Positions 13,149-18,973 of a stretch of 33,731 nucleotides of DNA are shown one piece after another (the first letter of the stretch is position 1; each line of letters starts with the position of its first letter). The notes beneath the pieces were generated by a model. The model saw only the letters and a program-made list of their open reading frames with translations. It was not told the origin of the DNA and made no database searches. The position numbers and the translations under genes are program-made. The stretch comes from Thermoflexales bacterium (GTDB lineage Bacteria > Chloroflexota > Anaerolineae > J036 > Brachytrichaceae), in the NCBI GenBank assembly GCA_025056965.1, contig JANWVF010000007.1:1-33731 (forward strand). The letters are read 5' to 3'.

Positions 13149-13694
13149 TCAGGACTTATGGTCTCGCAGCAGGCTGGCCGCGATCAGCAAAATCACGCCC
13201 ACCACGATGGCGCTGTCGGCGATGTTGAACACCGGCCAATCGAAGCCGATCTCCGGAATCTGGAAGTGGATGAAGTCGGTGACATAGCCCTGGCGCAGGC
13301 GATCGAGCAGGTTACCTATGGCGCCGCCGAGCTGCATGCCCAGCGCCACCCGCGACAGCCAGTCACCGGCCGGCAGCCGAGGCGCGTAATACAAAATCAC
13401 CGCCGAGACGACCAGGGCGACGATGATGAAGAACACCCCACCATTCGGAAACAGGCTGAACGCCGCGCCTGTGTTCTGCGTGTGCGTCCAGCTCAAGTAC
13501 GGGCCGATGACCGGGATGGACGTATAGAGCGGAATCTGCGCCTCGACGATGCGCTTGGTGACGATGTCCAAGATCAGCGCGATGCTTGCTGCCAGCAAAA
13601 GCAGCCAGTAGCGCCGCAGATGCGAGATCACCGCCGACCGACCCGAGCGGTCGGCCGGCGCGTTCGACTCGGTGATGCGCGCTTCCTCACTCAT
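13149..13694 (-). CDS. lspA: Lipoprotein signal peptidase (signal peptidase II)
   Basis: 181 aa. This aspartyl protease of the inner membrane removes signal peptides from diacylglyceryl-modified prolipoproteins. About 28 polar residues precede four membrane helices. Family motifs are all present: ILDIVTKRIV (Asp43, Lys47), NTGAAFSLF (74-82), GGAIGNLLDRL with catalytic Asp131, and FNIADSAI with catalytic Asp160. The enzyme therefore looks active. Its start codon overlaps the stop of the upstream KAP/LspA-like gene by ATGA (13691-13694), indicating translational coupling. ileS-lspA adjacency is familiar from other bacteria, but here a fusion gene is inserted between them. The HAD gene follows after 7 nt. 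Confidence 0.96.
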   Translation of the reverse strand: MSEEARITESNAPADRSGRSAVISHLRRYWLLLLAASIALILDIVTKRIVEAQIPLYTSIPVIGPYLSWTHTQNTGAAFSLFPNGGVFFIIVALVVSAVILYYAPRLPAGDWLSRVALGMQLGGAIGNLLDRLRQGYVTDFIHFQIPEIGFDWPVFNIADSAIVVGVILLIAASLLRDHKS

Positions 13695-15490
13695 GGGGCA
13701 GATCGCTTGTGCCTCGACCGCGCGTCGGTCAAGATGGCGAAAGCCAGCAGGATCGCGCCGGCCAACGCTGCGAGGTGCGCTAGGTTGAACGTCGGCAGGT
13801 TAGGGATGTGCAAGTAGTTCATCGCTGCGCCCCATGTGAGGCGGTCGAACAAGTGAGCGGCCAACCCACCAACGATCAAGCCATATGCCTTGGGTCGCAG
13901 GCCGTCAGCGCGATGGCCCACAAAAGCCATCATCAGCATGCACAGCGCCAGGCCAGCCAACGTCACGGCGATCCCTAAACCGGTATCCAGCAGGCCAACC
14001 TCTGTGGGCGGCTGCAAGCGGATCAGCCCGCCGAGCGCCGCTGCGCCGCCGCGCGATCCCTCACCGAATTGGACGGCCGCCTTGACCAGGCGGTCTACGA
14101 CGAAAACGCCCGCCGCGACCGAGATCAGCGCCCAGAATGGAGCAGGAGACGTCGCCGCCGCTGAGGAGCGCTGATGCGAACGATGGAGACCACGCGCGAT
14201 AGCCCGCGCTGCCGCGAGCGCCGCAGCAGCGGCGCTCGCGGGCGCAGCCGGCCGGGCCTCGCCGGTCGCCGATGCGGCAGCTGGCGGTTGCGTCTGCTGC
14301 GCCGACGACTTGTCACCGGCATAAACCAGGCGCAGCGCAGTCGCCAGGTGGCGCGTCTCGACGCCGATGAAGCTCGGCGCGGATGCAAATAGCCTGTTTA
14401 GGCGCGGGTTGTGCGCCAACGCTGCTGCCCAGTCGCCGTGGCTTTCATCGGCGAAGGGTTGTGCGCGCGCACGACGCTCCAGCGCGGCCAGCGCTGGCGC
14501 GTCCAGCCGGACGGCATCGAAGAGCGCCGGGGAGAGCACGCGCAGCACGCATAGCTTCGCCAACATCACGTCCGACACGTTGGCGCGCTGCCCGTCGGCC
14601 ATGCGCTTGGCCAGCCCGCGCATAGCCACGCGCCAGTACTCCTCTGCGCGCTCGATCGCGTAGCGATCGCTCCCCAGCATTTCGGCGAAGAGTTGCGCGC
14701 AGGGGCGCGGAATATCAGAGGGAGCAGTGGGCGGCGCCTGCGGCAACCGAGTCGGCGCATTCGCAGGAGAGGCCGGCCGCTTGCTCGGTCGCAGCTCGAC
14801 CCGATCGGTGAGCCAGGCGCGCAGCACGTTCGCATCGCCCAGCTTGCGGATCAGCTCGGCTTCATCGGCACAGATCAACGTGGCGCAATTCTGCGCGCTC
14901 AGGAAGTATTTCGCGGCCTCTAGCAGTTGGGCAGCATCCTCAGGCTTCGCGCGATCGAGATGATCTATTGCTACGACGAAGGTCGCGTCGGAGAGAGTGA
15001 TCGCGCTGTGAATCAGGCCGGCGAACGACGCGCGCATGCGGTGGGCGAATGCGGCGACGGCGAGCGTAGCGCTAGCGTCGTCGTCCAACTCCAGCCGCAC
15101 CACCTCCTCGAGCTGGTTGCGAAGCGTGTGGACGGCCGCTGGTGCGCCGGGCTGTTGCGCGAGCTTATCGAGCGCCCCGAACACCAGGCGCTGCCAAGGC
15201 GCCAAATCGCTCGGCAGGTTGGCCGCGTTAATGAGCGCGCACACGATCCGGCGATGCGGTAAGATGCGTTGAGCCTGTGCGTCGTCCCGGGACAACGCCT
15301 TTAATAATGTGGTTTTGCCGCTGCCGCGCGGTCCAAAGAGGCCGATCGCCCGGCGCGACCCGGGTTGACCCAACGCTGCCAACACGGCGTCAAGCGCTCG
15401 GCTTTGCTCGGCGCTCAGCGTGATGCCCGCCGACGCAGCGATGGCCGGCAGGGCTTGCCGGCGCAGTTGCTGCATAGTGTCGAGATTCAT
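13691..15490 (-). CDS. KAP-like P-loop ATPase fused to a degenerate LspA-like membrane domain
   Basis: 599 aa. Residues about 45-250 form a P-loop NTPase: Walker A GPRGSGKTT (53-61, Lys59) and Walker B FVVAIDHLDR (Asp176), then AAQLLEAAKYFL and a strand ending in ADEAEL. The h-x-D-x-L-D-R pattern resembles KAP-family NTPases. A helical region (about 270-385) contains NPRLNRLF, and an Ala/Pro-rich linker spans about 395-450. Residues 450-599 have four hydrophobic helices and align with the lspA product encoded next door: VFVVDRLVK (Asp466, Lys470) for ILDIVTK, HLFDRLTWG (Asp549) for NLLDRLRQG, and FNLAHLA (His572) for FNIADSA. The second catalytic Asp is thus His and NTGAAFS is lost, predicting no protease activity. 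GAGGG lies just before the ATG. It sits 48 nt after ileS and overlaps lspA by ATGA. Function is unknown; a membrane-tethered, ATP-driven role linked to lipoproteins is only inference. Confidence 0.75.
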   Translation of the reverse strand: MNLDTMQQLRRQALPAIAASAGITLSAEQSRALDAVLAALGQPGSRRAIGLFGPRGSGKTTLLKALSRDDAQAQRILPHRRIVCALINAANLPSDLAPWQRLVFGALDKLAQQPGAPAAVHTLRNQLEEVVRLELDDDASATLAVAAFAHRMRASFAGLIHSAITLSDATFVVAIDHLDRAKPEDAAQLLEAAKYFLSAQNCATLICADEAELIRKLGDANVLRAWLTDRVELRPSKRPASPANAPTRLPQAPPTAPSDIPRPCAQLFAEMLGSDRYAIERAEEYWRVAMRGLAKRMADGQRANVSDVMLAKLCVLRVLSPALFDAVRLDAPALAALERRARAQPFADESHGDWAAALAHNPRLNRLFASAPSFIGVETRHLATALRLVYAGDKSSAQQTQPPAAASATGEARPAAPASAAAAALAAARAIARGLHRSHQRSSAAATSPAPFWALISVAAGVFVVDRLVKAAVQFGEGSRGGAAALGGLIRLQPPTEVGLLDTGLGIAVTLAGLALCMLMMAFVGHRADGLRPKAYGLIVGGLAAHLFDRLTWGAAMNYLHIPNLPTFNLAHLAALAGAILLAFAILTDARSRHKRSAP

Positions 15491-15538: not shown

Positions 15539-18500
15539 CTAGTCCGATGCCTTTTCGAGAGAGAGGGTGAGCTGCTCGCCGTCGAACGCATCGCTGGCGC
15601 TGATGGCGTCCGGTAGCCGGCCCTCGATTAGGGCGACGCTCAACGTCTCGCCCTTGATGTATTCGGCGAAGTCGCCGATAGCGCGCCTCAACCGATCGCT
15701 GGCGGTGTAGGCCAGGCGAATGCGATCGGAGACGTTGAGGCCGGCTGCTTTGCGCAGGTCGTTCACGCGGCGCACTACCTCGCGCGCCAGCCCTTCGGCG
15801 ATCAGCGCGTCGTCGAGCGTGGTATCCAGGCCGACGACGATGCCGTTCTCGCCGGCCACGATCAACCCTTCGCGCGGAACGGCCTGCACGATGACCTCAT
15901 CGGGCTGGAGAGAGACGCCGTTGACCGCGATGGGTTGGCCGGCCTTTACCGCGGCGGCGACGTCGGAAGGATCGAGTTGGCCCAGGGCGGCGCGCACCTT
16001 CGGCAGGTCAGCGCCCAGCTTCTTGCCCAACTTCTTCAAATCGGGCAACACGCGGTAGCTGACCAGCTCGACTTCGCGCTCGACGAACTCCAGCGCCTTA
16101 ACGTTCAACTCATCGGTGATGACCTCGTAGTGCGCCATGATCGCGCGGCGCGCTTCATCGTTAGCGACGATCATCGCTTTGCGCAGCGGTTGGCGCACCT
16201 TCAGCTTGGACTGGGCGCGGGTGCTGTGGCCGAGCGCCACCACCGTTCGCGCCAGCGCCACCTCGCGCAACAGGGCACGTTCCTCTTCGCTCAGCGCGCG
16301 CGGCTGCGGGTAGGACTGGTGATGCACGGAGAAGGCCTGTTGCGATTCGCATAGCCGCCGGTTGTCCTCCGCGCTCCGAAGGTTGAACTCCGGGTGCTTG
16401 AGGTTCTGCCACATCACTTCACTGATGAAGGGGACGATGGGCGCGATCAGGCGGGCCAGCGCGGTAAGCACTTCGTAGAGCGTGGCGTAGGCGGCTGCCT
16501 TGTCCGACGTCATCTGGCTGCCCCAGAAGCGCTCGCGCGAGCGCCGGACGTACCAGTTCGATAGGTCATCAATGAACTTCTCGATGGCCAACACGGCCGG
16601 CCGCGCGTCGTAAGCGTCGAGCGCGGCGTTGACCGCGTTCGTCGTCTCGGCCAGACGGGCCAAGATCCACTTGTCCAGAAGGCTGAGCGAGGCGGGTTCG
16701 CCGTGTCCGGTGTCTGCTTCTGCGGTCGGCGTCCATCGGTCGGCGTTGGCATAGGTGACGAAGAACGCATACACGTTCCACAGCGGAATGATGACCTGAC
16801 GACGAACTTCGTTGAGCGCGTTGTAGCCGAACAGCAGGTTGTCGTCGTAACGCTGGCGCGCGTAGAGCCAGCGCATCACATCGGCGCCAGCCTTGTCGGC
16901 AGCTTCGTTGAACTCGATGGCGTTGCCCTTGCTCTTGTGCATCGGCTCGCCCTTTTCGTCGAGCAGGGTCGCGTAGCCGAGGATGGTGCGCGCAGGCAAG
17001 TGCTTCTCCAGTACCGTGCTCATCGCAATCAACGAGTAGAACCAGTTACGGAACTGGCCGGGGAAGCTCTCGGTGATGAAATCGGCCGGGAACCACTGCT
17101 GCCAATAGGCGCGGTCGGTGCGATAGCGCAAAGTGGAATAGGCGACGATGCCGGCATCGAGCCACGGGTTGCCGACGTCGGGCACGCGCGTGCCGATCAA
17201 GCCGGTGACCGGATGCTTGATCTTGACTTTGTCAATGTGCGGCCGGTGCGGCGTGTGTCCGTCGAACTCCTCCCAGCCCTCGACGGCGCGCGCCTTCAGC
17301 TCCTCATAGCTGCCGATCACCTCGAAGGTGCCGTCGGGGTACTCCCAGATCGGCAGCGCCAGCCCCCAATAGCGCTTCTTGCTGATCATCCAGTCGTGCA
17401 TGTTGCGCAACCAGTCCAGCTCGCGCTCTTTGCCGAAGGGGGGAATCCAGTTAATCTGCTCCGACACGGCCATCATGTCGTAGCGCAGCTCGTCCATGCT
17501 GATGTACCACTCATCCACCATGCGATAGACGAGCGGGGTGCCGCACCGCCAACAGTGCGCGTAGCGGTGCAGATACTTGTCGTGCCGGTAGAAATAGCCC
17601 TTAGCCTTGAGCAGCGCTTCGACCAAATCGGCCACTTCGTGGGCGTGCTTGCCGGTCAGCTCGCCGAAGCCGTCCAAGAAATAGCCGTCCTCGTTCAGCG
17701 GCGCGATCTTCGGCATGCCGTGCTGCTGGCCGAGCTGATAGTCCTCCGGGCCGGCGCCGGGTGCGTTGTGCACGATGCCGGTGCCCTCATCTTCACCGAC
17801 GCCATCCCAGGTGATGACGATATGCTCAAAGGGGCGGCCGTCGTGCTTATCCTGCCAGCGCTTATGGGCGTCAATGAAGGCGGGCAGGTCGTCGAACAAA
17901 CCCTCGTACGTCCAGCCGGCCATGTGCTCACCCAGGATCTCGCCCAGCACTTCGTATTCGCCGCGCAGGATCTTCAGCGTCTTATTGCTAAGGAAATACA
18001 CGGCCAGTTCGCCATCCTTGTGCAGTTGCCGGACGATCGCATAGGTGAGCTTTGGCCCAACCGAAGCCATGATGTTGGCCGGCAGCGTCCACGGCGTCGT
18101 CGTCCAGGCCAGCAGGAACTTGCCCGGCGCGTGGTCGAACTTGGCGCGCGCTTGCTCGTTGACCCACGCCGCCCGGCTCACATCAAACGACTTCAGCTTC
18201 ATCCGCACGGTGATAGCCGGGTCTTCGCGATCTTTATAGCCTTCCGTGTCTATCTCGTGCTGGCTGATGCCGGTGGCGCAGCGCGGACACCATGGGATCA
18301 CGTCCTCGCCGCGATAGATCCAGCCTTTCTCGTGGCACTTCTTCAAGAAGTTCCAGATCTGGTAGTTGTTCTCGTCGCTGAAGGTGAAATACGAACCACC
18401 CAGTTCGGGCAGGCCGAGCCGGCCAACGATCTGCTCGACCGTGCCGGTGATCTTTTGGCCGCCGCGCTCCAGCGTGATGACCTGTTGTGGATCCTCGACG

Positions 18501-18973
18501 ATCTTCTGCGCCAGCCAGCGCAGCTCGTCCGGGTCGTTCCAGTCCATCCAGTAGCCCAGCCGAATGGACTGCTCGGTCTGCATCGCGGCGCTGTTCAGCA
18601 CGCGCTGCTTGCACAGACGAATGAACCGCTCCATGCCGAAGGCTTCAATATCGCGCTTCGACTTGAAGCCCATGTCCTTCTCGACGTTGACCTCGACCCA
18701 CAAGCCCTGGCAATCGAAGCCGTTCTGCCAGCGCTGGTTGTAGCCCTGCATGGCGAAGTAGCGCTGCCAAAGATCCTTGTAGGTGCGCCCCCAGGCGTGA
18801 TGCACACCCATCGGGTTGTTGGCGGTAATCGGGCCGTCTATGAAGGAGAAGCGCTTGTCGGACGCGGCGCGCAGCTTCCGCAGGCGGTCGAATGCCTGGG
18901 TGCGCGCCCAGAAGGCGAGCACCTCGCGTTCTTGCAGTGGGAAGTCAACCTGAGTCGCAACTGGCTGAAACAT
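15539..18973 (-). CDS. ileS: Isoleucyl-tRNA synthetase, divergent form
   Basis: 1144 aa, about 100 longer than typical bacterial IleRS. It charges tRNA-Ile in the cytosol. The class I catalytic core begins FSFIDGPITANNPMGVHHAWGRTYKD: residues 56-59, GVHH, occupy the HIGH position. The KMSKS loop is MHKSKGN (678-684, second Lys682). MISKKRYWGLALPIWEYPDGTFEVIGSYEELK and DGHTPHRPHIDKVKI are IleRS-type core blocks. An editing (CP1) insertion lies between, with AWTTTPWTLPANIMASVGP and GTGIVHNAPGAGPEDYQLG. FPGQFRNWFYSL replaces the common DQTRGWF type of sequence. The C-terminal anticodon-binding part includes SNWYVRRSRERFWG. It is the first gene of the apparent ileS-KAP/LspA-lspA-HAD operon. I saw no T-box leader in the 51 bp before the divergent TPT gene. 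A related class I synthetase is the only alternative; Ile is best supported. Confidence 0.9.
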   Translation of the reverse strand: MFQPVATQVDFPLQEREVLAFWARTQAFDRLRKLRAASDKRFSFIDGPITANNPMGVHHAWGRTYKDLWQRYFAMQGYNQRWQNGFDCQGLWVEVNVEKDMGFKSKRDIEAFGMERFIRLCKQRVLNSAAMQTEQSIRLGYWMDWNDPDELRWLAQKIVEDPQQVITLERGGQKITGTVEQIVGRLGLPELGGSYFTFSDENNYQIWNFLKKCHEKGWIYRGEDVIPWCPRCATGISQHEIDTEGYKDREDPAITVRMKLKSFDVSRAAWVNEQARAKFDHAPGKFLLAWTTTPWTLPANIMASVGPKLTYAIVRQLHKDGELAVYFLSNKTLKILRGEYEVLGEILGEHMAGWTYEGLFDDLPAFIDAHKRWQDKHDGRPFEHIVITWDGVGEDEGTGIVHNAPGAGPEDYQLGQQHGMPKIAPLNEDGYFLDGFGELTGKHAHEVADLVEALLKAKGYFYRHDKYLHRYAHCWRCGTPLVYRMVDEWYISMDELRYDMMAVSEQINWIPPFGKERELDWLRNMHDWMISKKRYWGLALPIWEYPDGTFEVIGSYEELKARAVEGWEEFDGHTPHRPHIDKVKIKHPVTGLIGTRVPDVGNPWLDAGIVAYSTLRYRTDRAYWQQWFPADFITESFPGQFRNWFYSLIAMSTVLEKHLPARTILGYATLLDEKGEPMHKSKGNAIEFNEAADKAGADVMRWLYARQRYDDNLLFGYNALNEVRRQVIIPLWNVYAFFVTYANADRWTPTAEADTGHGEPASLSLLDKWILARLAETTNAVNAALDAYDARPAVLAIEKFIDDLSNWYVRRSRERFWGSQMTSDKAAAYATLYEVLTALARLIAPIVPFISEVMWQNLKHPEFNLRSAEDNRRLCESQQAFSVHHQSYPQPRALSEEERALLREVALARTVVALGHSTRAQSKLKVRQPLRKAMIVANDEARRAIMAHYEVITDELNVKALEFVEREVELVSYRVLPDLKKLGKKLGADLPKVRAALGQLDPSDVAAAVKAGQPIAVNGVSLQPDEVIVQAVPREGLIVAGENGIVVGLDTTLDDALIAEGLAREVVRRVNDLRKAAGLNVSDRIRLAYTASDRLRRAIGDFAEYIKGETLSVALIEGRLPDAISASDAFDGEQLTLSLEKASD

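Follow-up and report, generated by a model that had tools for sequence, protein, structure and literature searches.

Genomic location and organization of the fusion gene

The window, meaning the whole stretch of 33,731 nucleotides analysed here, carries on its reverse strand a gene for a protein of 599 residues in which a KAP-like NTPase domain is joined to a domain related to signal peptidase II (LspA), termed here the pseudo-LspA domain. This gene lies between ileS and a true lspA, and the ATG of lspA shares a 4-base overlap with the stop codon of the fusion gene. The features of the locus are listed below, in the direction of transcription and with residue numbers of the fusion protein.

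15539 to 18973, reverse strand: ileS, directly upstream of the fusion gene, as in the family members with sequence there
13691 to 15490, reverse strand: fusion gene (KAP-like NTPase plus pseudo-LspA), open reading frame of 599 aa with an ATG start
14786 to 15361, reverse strand: KAP/AAA NTPase domain, residues ~44–235 (PF07693, E 6e-11; PF13191, E 8e-9)
15311 to 15334, reverse strand: Walker A motif (P-loop) GPRGSGKT, residues 53–60, read from the sequence
14954 to 14980, reverse strand: KAP-style Walker B motif FVVAIDHLD, residues 171–179, ending at Asp179, read from the sequence
14306 to 14728, reverse strand: helical middle region, residues ~255–395 (alignment; secondary structure from a low-confidence model)
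14147 to 14305, reverse strand: variable Ala/Pro-rich linker, residues 396–448 (mean identity 0.15 in the family)
13721 to 14137, reverse strand: pseudo-LspA domain with four membrane helices, residues ~452–590 (PF01252, PDB profile, hhalign, fold, hydropathy)
14081 to 14095, reverse strand: D466-R467-(x2)-K470, with D466 and K470 at the LspA Asp21 and Lys25 positions and R467 replacing Gln/Ile
13841 to 13846, reverse strand: D549-R550, at LspA Asp109-Arg110, conserved and outside the catalytic pair (alignment, PMC6952399)
13817 to 13819, reverse strand: N558, in place of the first catalytic Asp (S. aureus Asp118; alignment)
13775 to 13786, reverse strand: N569-L-A-H572, with H572 in place of the second catalytic Asp (Asp136; alignment)
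13149 to 13694, reverse strand: true lspA, 181 aa, with all conserved catalytic residues present (PF01252, E 5e-39)

The helical middle region is missing from the alignment in members of genera g2 and g3. A full-length model of the fusion, built with six close sequences, had a mean pLDDT of 42 and was not used for the fold search. Elsewhere in the window, positions 156–2423 of the forward strand encode a protein of 755 aa that contains a Schlafen AlbA_2 domain; its N-terminal part appears PHP-like by eye.

The C-terminal domain is homologous to signal peptidase II

The C-terminal four-helix domain is homologous to LspA, as the original prediction had proposed. The Peptidase_A8 profile (PF01252) matched residues 459–587 with an E-value of 8e-8 and 33 bits, above the gathering cut-off of 25, and its score reached 52 bits in the orthologue L024. 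Pairwise BLAST of the fusion against the neighbouring LspA gave an E-value of 1e-7, with 38% identity over 72 aa. When a profile of 19 family members was compared with the PDB, only LspA structures were matched (6ryo, 9emz and 5dir, E 4e-15 to 2e-14), and profile-profile comparison of pseudo-LspA with LspA (hhalign) returned 99.5% with an E-value of 1e-22.

The predicted fold of residues 445–599 (mean pLDDT 72) matched 6ryp, 6ryo and 5dir with Z-scores of 14.0–14.4 over 135–146 residues (rmsd 2.9–3.6), and the best unrelated chain reached a Z-score of 5.9; in the model, the domain has the four-helix LspA fold. Because the alignment behind the model contained true LspA rows, this fold match depends in part on the sequence evidence. 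The hydropathy of the pseudo-LspA domain also parallels that of true LspA, and membrane segments were found only at residues 447–588.

Both catalytic aspartates are replaced in the pseudo-LspA domain

Published work lists 14 conserved LspA residues, and mutants identify Asp118 and Asp136 (S. aureus numbering) as the catalytic pair (PMC6952399). These positions were mapped on 24 aligned C-terminal domains of the fusion family and 22 true LspAs of the same family, and the same register was obtained in an independent check by alignment to the solved S. aureus LspA. All 22 true LspAs keep the 14 signature residues save Phe132, which is Ser in nine.

In the pseudo-domains, the first catalytic position (Asp118) corresponds to N558 and is Asn in 21 of the 24 sequences, with one each of His, Asp and Thr. 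The second (Asp136) corresponds to H572 and is His throughout (24/24); a 25th sequence, L025, reads SPGH at this site. Judged from this alignment, both catalytic Asp residues are lost in the fusion family. The original prediction had correctly placed His572 at the second catalytic site and noted the disappearance of the NTGAAFS motif; it had taken Asp549 for the retained first catalytic Asp, which does not hold, as Asp549 occupies the conserved, non-catalytic Asp109 position. The Asn52 and Gly54 positions are Q493 and P495 in the window protein, and NTGxxF is lost throughout the fusion family. These two residues belong to the beta-cradle of LspA, and their loss means that the pseudo-domain cannot hold a lipoprotein in just the way that LspA does.

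Other positions of the site are retained. The Asp21 position (D466) and the Asp109 position (D549) are Asp in all 24 pseudo-domains, the Lys25 position (K470) is Lys in 23, the Asn133 position (N569) is Asn in 21 and the Arg110 position (R550) is Arg in 20, while R467 is Arg in 22. The only polar columns kept in at least 20 of the 24 sequences are D466, R467, K470, D549, R550, N558, N569 and H572, all of which coincide with or adjoin LspA active-site positions. The 14-residue LspA signature is enriched among the columns kept in 20 of 24 sequences (8 of 24 columns, P 4e-4). With His counted as neutral, the net charge of the eight pocket positions is −2 in 22/22 true LspAs versus +1 (17/24) or 0 (7/24) in the pseudo-domains.

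The NTPase domain and its repeated loss of the P-loop

The N-terminal half of the window protein carries intact Walker A and Walker B motifs, and the KAP_NTPase profile (PF07693) matched residues 48–217 with 42.5 bits (cut-off 20), in agreement with its earlier assignment as a KAP-like NTPase; the AAA_16 match (PF13191) was also above its cut-off. Among the orthologues, the PF07693 match is weaker or absent in g4. Walker A is intact in g1, in those g2 members that were seen, in g5 and g8 and in G014; in G021, the open frame begins far upstream and the P-loop is intact in the alignment. The motif is lost in all g4 genomes, in G013 (g6), in G006 and G005 (g3) and in G015 and G016 (g7), which corresponds to about four separate events on the IleS tree.

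Twelve residues (R75, W99, F148, Y195, F196, P261, D466, L516, L547, D549, H572 and G578) are invariant in 15 diverse members. This set holds no P-loop residue and three residues of the pseudo-LspA pocket. Given the P-loop losses in about four lineages, nucleotide hydrolysis cannot be the function shared by the family, and nucleotide use is not essential. The suggestion of a pseudo-protease anchor powered by an ATPase is therefore retained in part: an inactive LspA and an NTPase do occur in one protein, and ATPase power as a general mechanism is not supported, given the loss of the P-loop in g3, g4, g6 and two g7 genomes.

Within the genus of the window, dN/dS was 0.09–0.20 for the NTPase domain, 0.20–0.54 for pseudo-LspA and 0.06–0.25 for LspA, and mostly 0.2–0.6 for the linker. 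Selection on the NTPase domain is strong in this genus, where the domain is intact. The values for the NTPase and pseudo-LspA domains argue that the fusion is not a decaying gene.

Distribution, gene order and origin

The fusion was identified in 27 of the 28 genomes of the order, which comprise one family with eight genera of Candidatus Roseilinea relatives; the single genome without it is 78% complete. Among named genomes, the closest fusions are those of five relatives (Ca. Roseilinea and uncultured Anaerolineae MAGs), found by genus alignment; they place the window in a Ca. Roseilinea relative (class Anaerolineae, phylum Chloroflexota). A scan of genome contigs with the single fusion protein gave no match, and an alignment of distant members offered no sufficiently conserved segment for such a scan. 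Outside the family, about 500 Chloroflexota genomes (overlapping draws, 249 from the class and 301 from the phylum) yielded no fusion, nor did the phages and plasmids searched, and the matches inspected there proved to be true LspAs whose motifs are intact, or else a KAP protein lacking the LspA part.

The order ileS-fusion-lspA recurs across genera, with the fusion always after ileS and normally directly before the true lspA. Genus g2 differs in that its true lspA has moved away (G001:C379, G002:C320 and G003:C47) and the fusion is still found behind ileS, which indicates that close co-expression is not required. Other families have ileS and lspA side by side, with nothing fusion-like between them (L093, L094, L096 and L097). 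The genomes of the family that bear the fusion also hold an intact true LspA wherever the assembly lets it be seen; no PF01252 match was found in two family genomes, whose completeness is 67% and 87%. Together, the distribution and gene order point to a fusion that was most likely born in the ancestor of the family and inherited vertically. The pseudo-LspA domain sits on a long branch in the trees, and in the AU test neither a sister position to the family's own LspA nor one to the LspA of another family was rejected (both p 0.11). Tandem duplication of the family's own lspA is a possible source of the domain.

Several features of the neighbouring genes were also observed. The IleS of the family (window 15539–18973, reverse strand) is divergent, with 672 bits to TIGR00392 versus 1001 for the class relative L097, and is 34–37% identical to the IleS of other Chloroflexota families. 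In the true LspAs of the family (window 13149–13694, reverse strand), the loop preceding FNxAD is longer than in most of the other Chloroflexota LspAs inspected. A third PF01252 match (112 bits) at G009:C99:2967-3383 represents either another LspA that looks genuine or a contig of foreign origin, and the g2 LspA at G003:C47:7399-7824 is unusually weak (86 bits), perhaps having been acquired from elsewhere.

Proposed role of the fusion protein

The conserved pocket, the lost catalysis, the inverted charge and the co-resident LspA together suggest a pseudo-enzyme that binds a ligand of the LspA step or LspA itself. Our leading, still tentative, reading is that the fusion acts as a non-catalytic accessory or sensor beside true LspA in lipoprotein processing. 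The role of lipoprotein sensor raised in the original prediction is possible. The fusion would be a pseudo-enzyme in the lipoprotein pathway that is specific to this lineage and inherited vertically, with an N-terminal KAP-type NTPase domain, probably cytosolic, connected through a flexible linker to an LspA-derived membrane domain in which the catalytic Asp pair is gone and a re-tuned pocket is kept. The cytosolic position follows if the membrane domain has the topology of LspA. The pocket may bind a signal peptide, a diacylglyceryl-lipoprotein, an anionic lipid head group or LspA itself, in each case with no cutting, and binding would be relayed to the cytosolic domain, which may work as a nucleotide switch in members with an intact P-loop and simply as an interaction domain in those that have lost it. 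We infer the membrane topology, the ligand binding, the coupling of the domains and any effect on LspA.

In a more specific form, which we consider somewhat unlikely, the fusion would be a dedicated LspA regulator, a two-domain pseudo-LspA whose charge-inverted pocket senses prolipoprotein or lipid and signals to, or is gated by, the cytosolic KAP-type switch. If true, the Lgt-LspA pathway would gain its first known non-catalytic partner.

In the reading as a plain membrane anchor, a role put forward in the original prediction, the LspA copy would have been taken only for four helices that hold the KAP-like NTPase at the membrane, with a pocket of no role, and both the faster evolution of pseudo-LspA than of the NTPase domain within the genus and the loss of the NTG loop would fit. 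However, an anchor would need no invariant Asp, Asp and His nor near-invariant Lys, Arg and Asn, all at LspA active-site positions (the signature enrichment given above), although some of these residues might serve helix packing only. The placement of the well-conserved polar residues argues for an LspA copy put to new use as a pseudo-enzyme and against a bare anchor, and we regard the anchor alone as unlikely.

We consider it improbable that Asn558 and His572, together with Asp549, Asp466 and Lys470, form the new active site of a different enzyme, acting for example on a lipid or acyl substrate. The replacements are uniform (His in 24/24, Asn in 21/24) and the Asp and Lys neighbours are frozen; however, no known enzyme with such a residue set was matched, Asn558 is His, Asp or Thr in three members, and the model of the domain, with its mean pLDDT of 72, is too uncertain for geometry.

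A defence protein of the QatA/Tmn kind, in which a KAP NTPase would detect a disturbed envelope or disturbed lipoproteins when phages attack, was rejected as the main explanation and is distinctly improbable. Defence does include KAP proteins that have membrane parts (Tmn, PMC11846954), and the NTPase part gave weak QatA matches, but the QatA equivalog score was 34.6 bits against a cut-off of 600, the neighbours are ileS and lspA with no qat genes beside them, and a fixed site behind the housekeeping ileS in nearly the whole order and absence from the phages and plasmids searched also speak against it. Finally, a decaying, functionless relic of an lspA duplication, as the lost catalytic residues and the P-loop losses in several lineages might suggest, is hardly credible, given that the frame is open in most members, that both domains show dN/dS values well below 1 and that pocket residues are invariant across genera.

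Comparison with known systems

LspA (PF01252, Peptidase A8) is seen as an enzyme that works alone, and it is a target of antibiotics (globomycin, myxovirescin). The fusion shares with it the four-helix membrane fold, the residues at the Asp21, Lys25, Asp109, Arg110 and Asn133 positions and the adjacency to ileS, and differs in the replacement of the catalytic Asp residues by Asn and His, the lost NTGxxF loop and the attached N-terminal NTPase. With KAP NTPases (PF07693, including QatA and Tmn), it has in common the P-loop, the KAP-style Walker B followed by an LLEA.KYFL helix and the profile match. Many KAP proteins carry membrane segments inserted in the NTPase domain, whereas the NTPase part of the fusion has none and its membrane domain is C-terminal and LspA-derived; the P-loop losses in several members and the weakness of the QatA match are further differences. 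Inactive rhomboids (iRhoms) are pseudoproteases that likewise combine a membrane protease fold, lost catalysis and conservation within a clade with coexisting active relatives, although they belong to another protease family and have no NTPase fusion.

Pseudoproteases and KAP NTPases are already known. Neither a catalytically inactive LspA nor its joining to a KAP-type NTPase was found described in the open-access literature searched, which agrees with the initial statement that no system of this architecture was known. If an inactive LspA is conserved next to the active copy throughout a family, the LspA step would be regulated or assisted in some bacteria, and a regulated lipoprotein signal peptidase may represent a new principle if the function is confirmed. 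These natural variants of the LspA pocket also offer a means to test pocket binding without cutting. A different KAP fusion was observed in another family of the class, where L058:958-3222 (forward strand) encodes a 755-aa, QatA-like protein that joins KAP_NTPase to an FGE-sulfatase domain.
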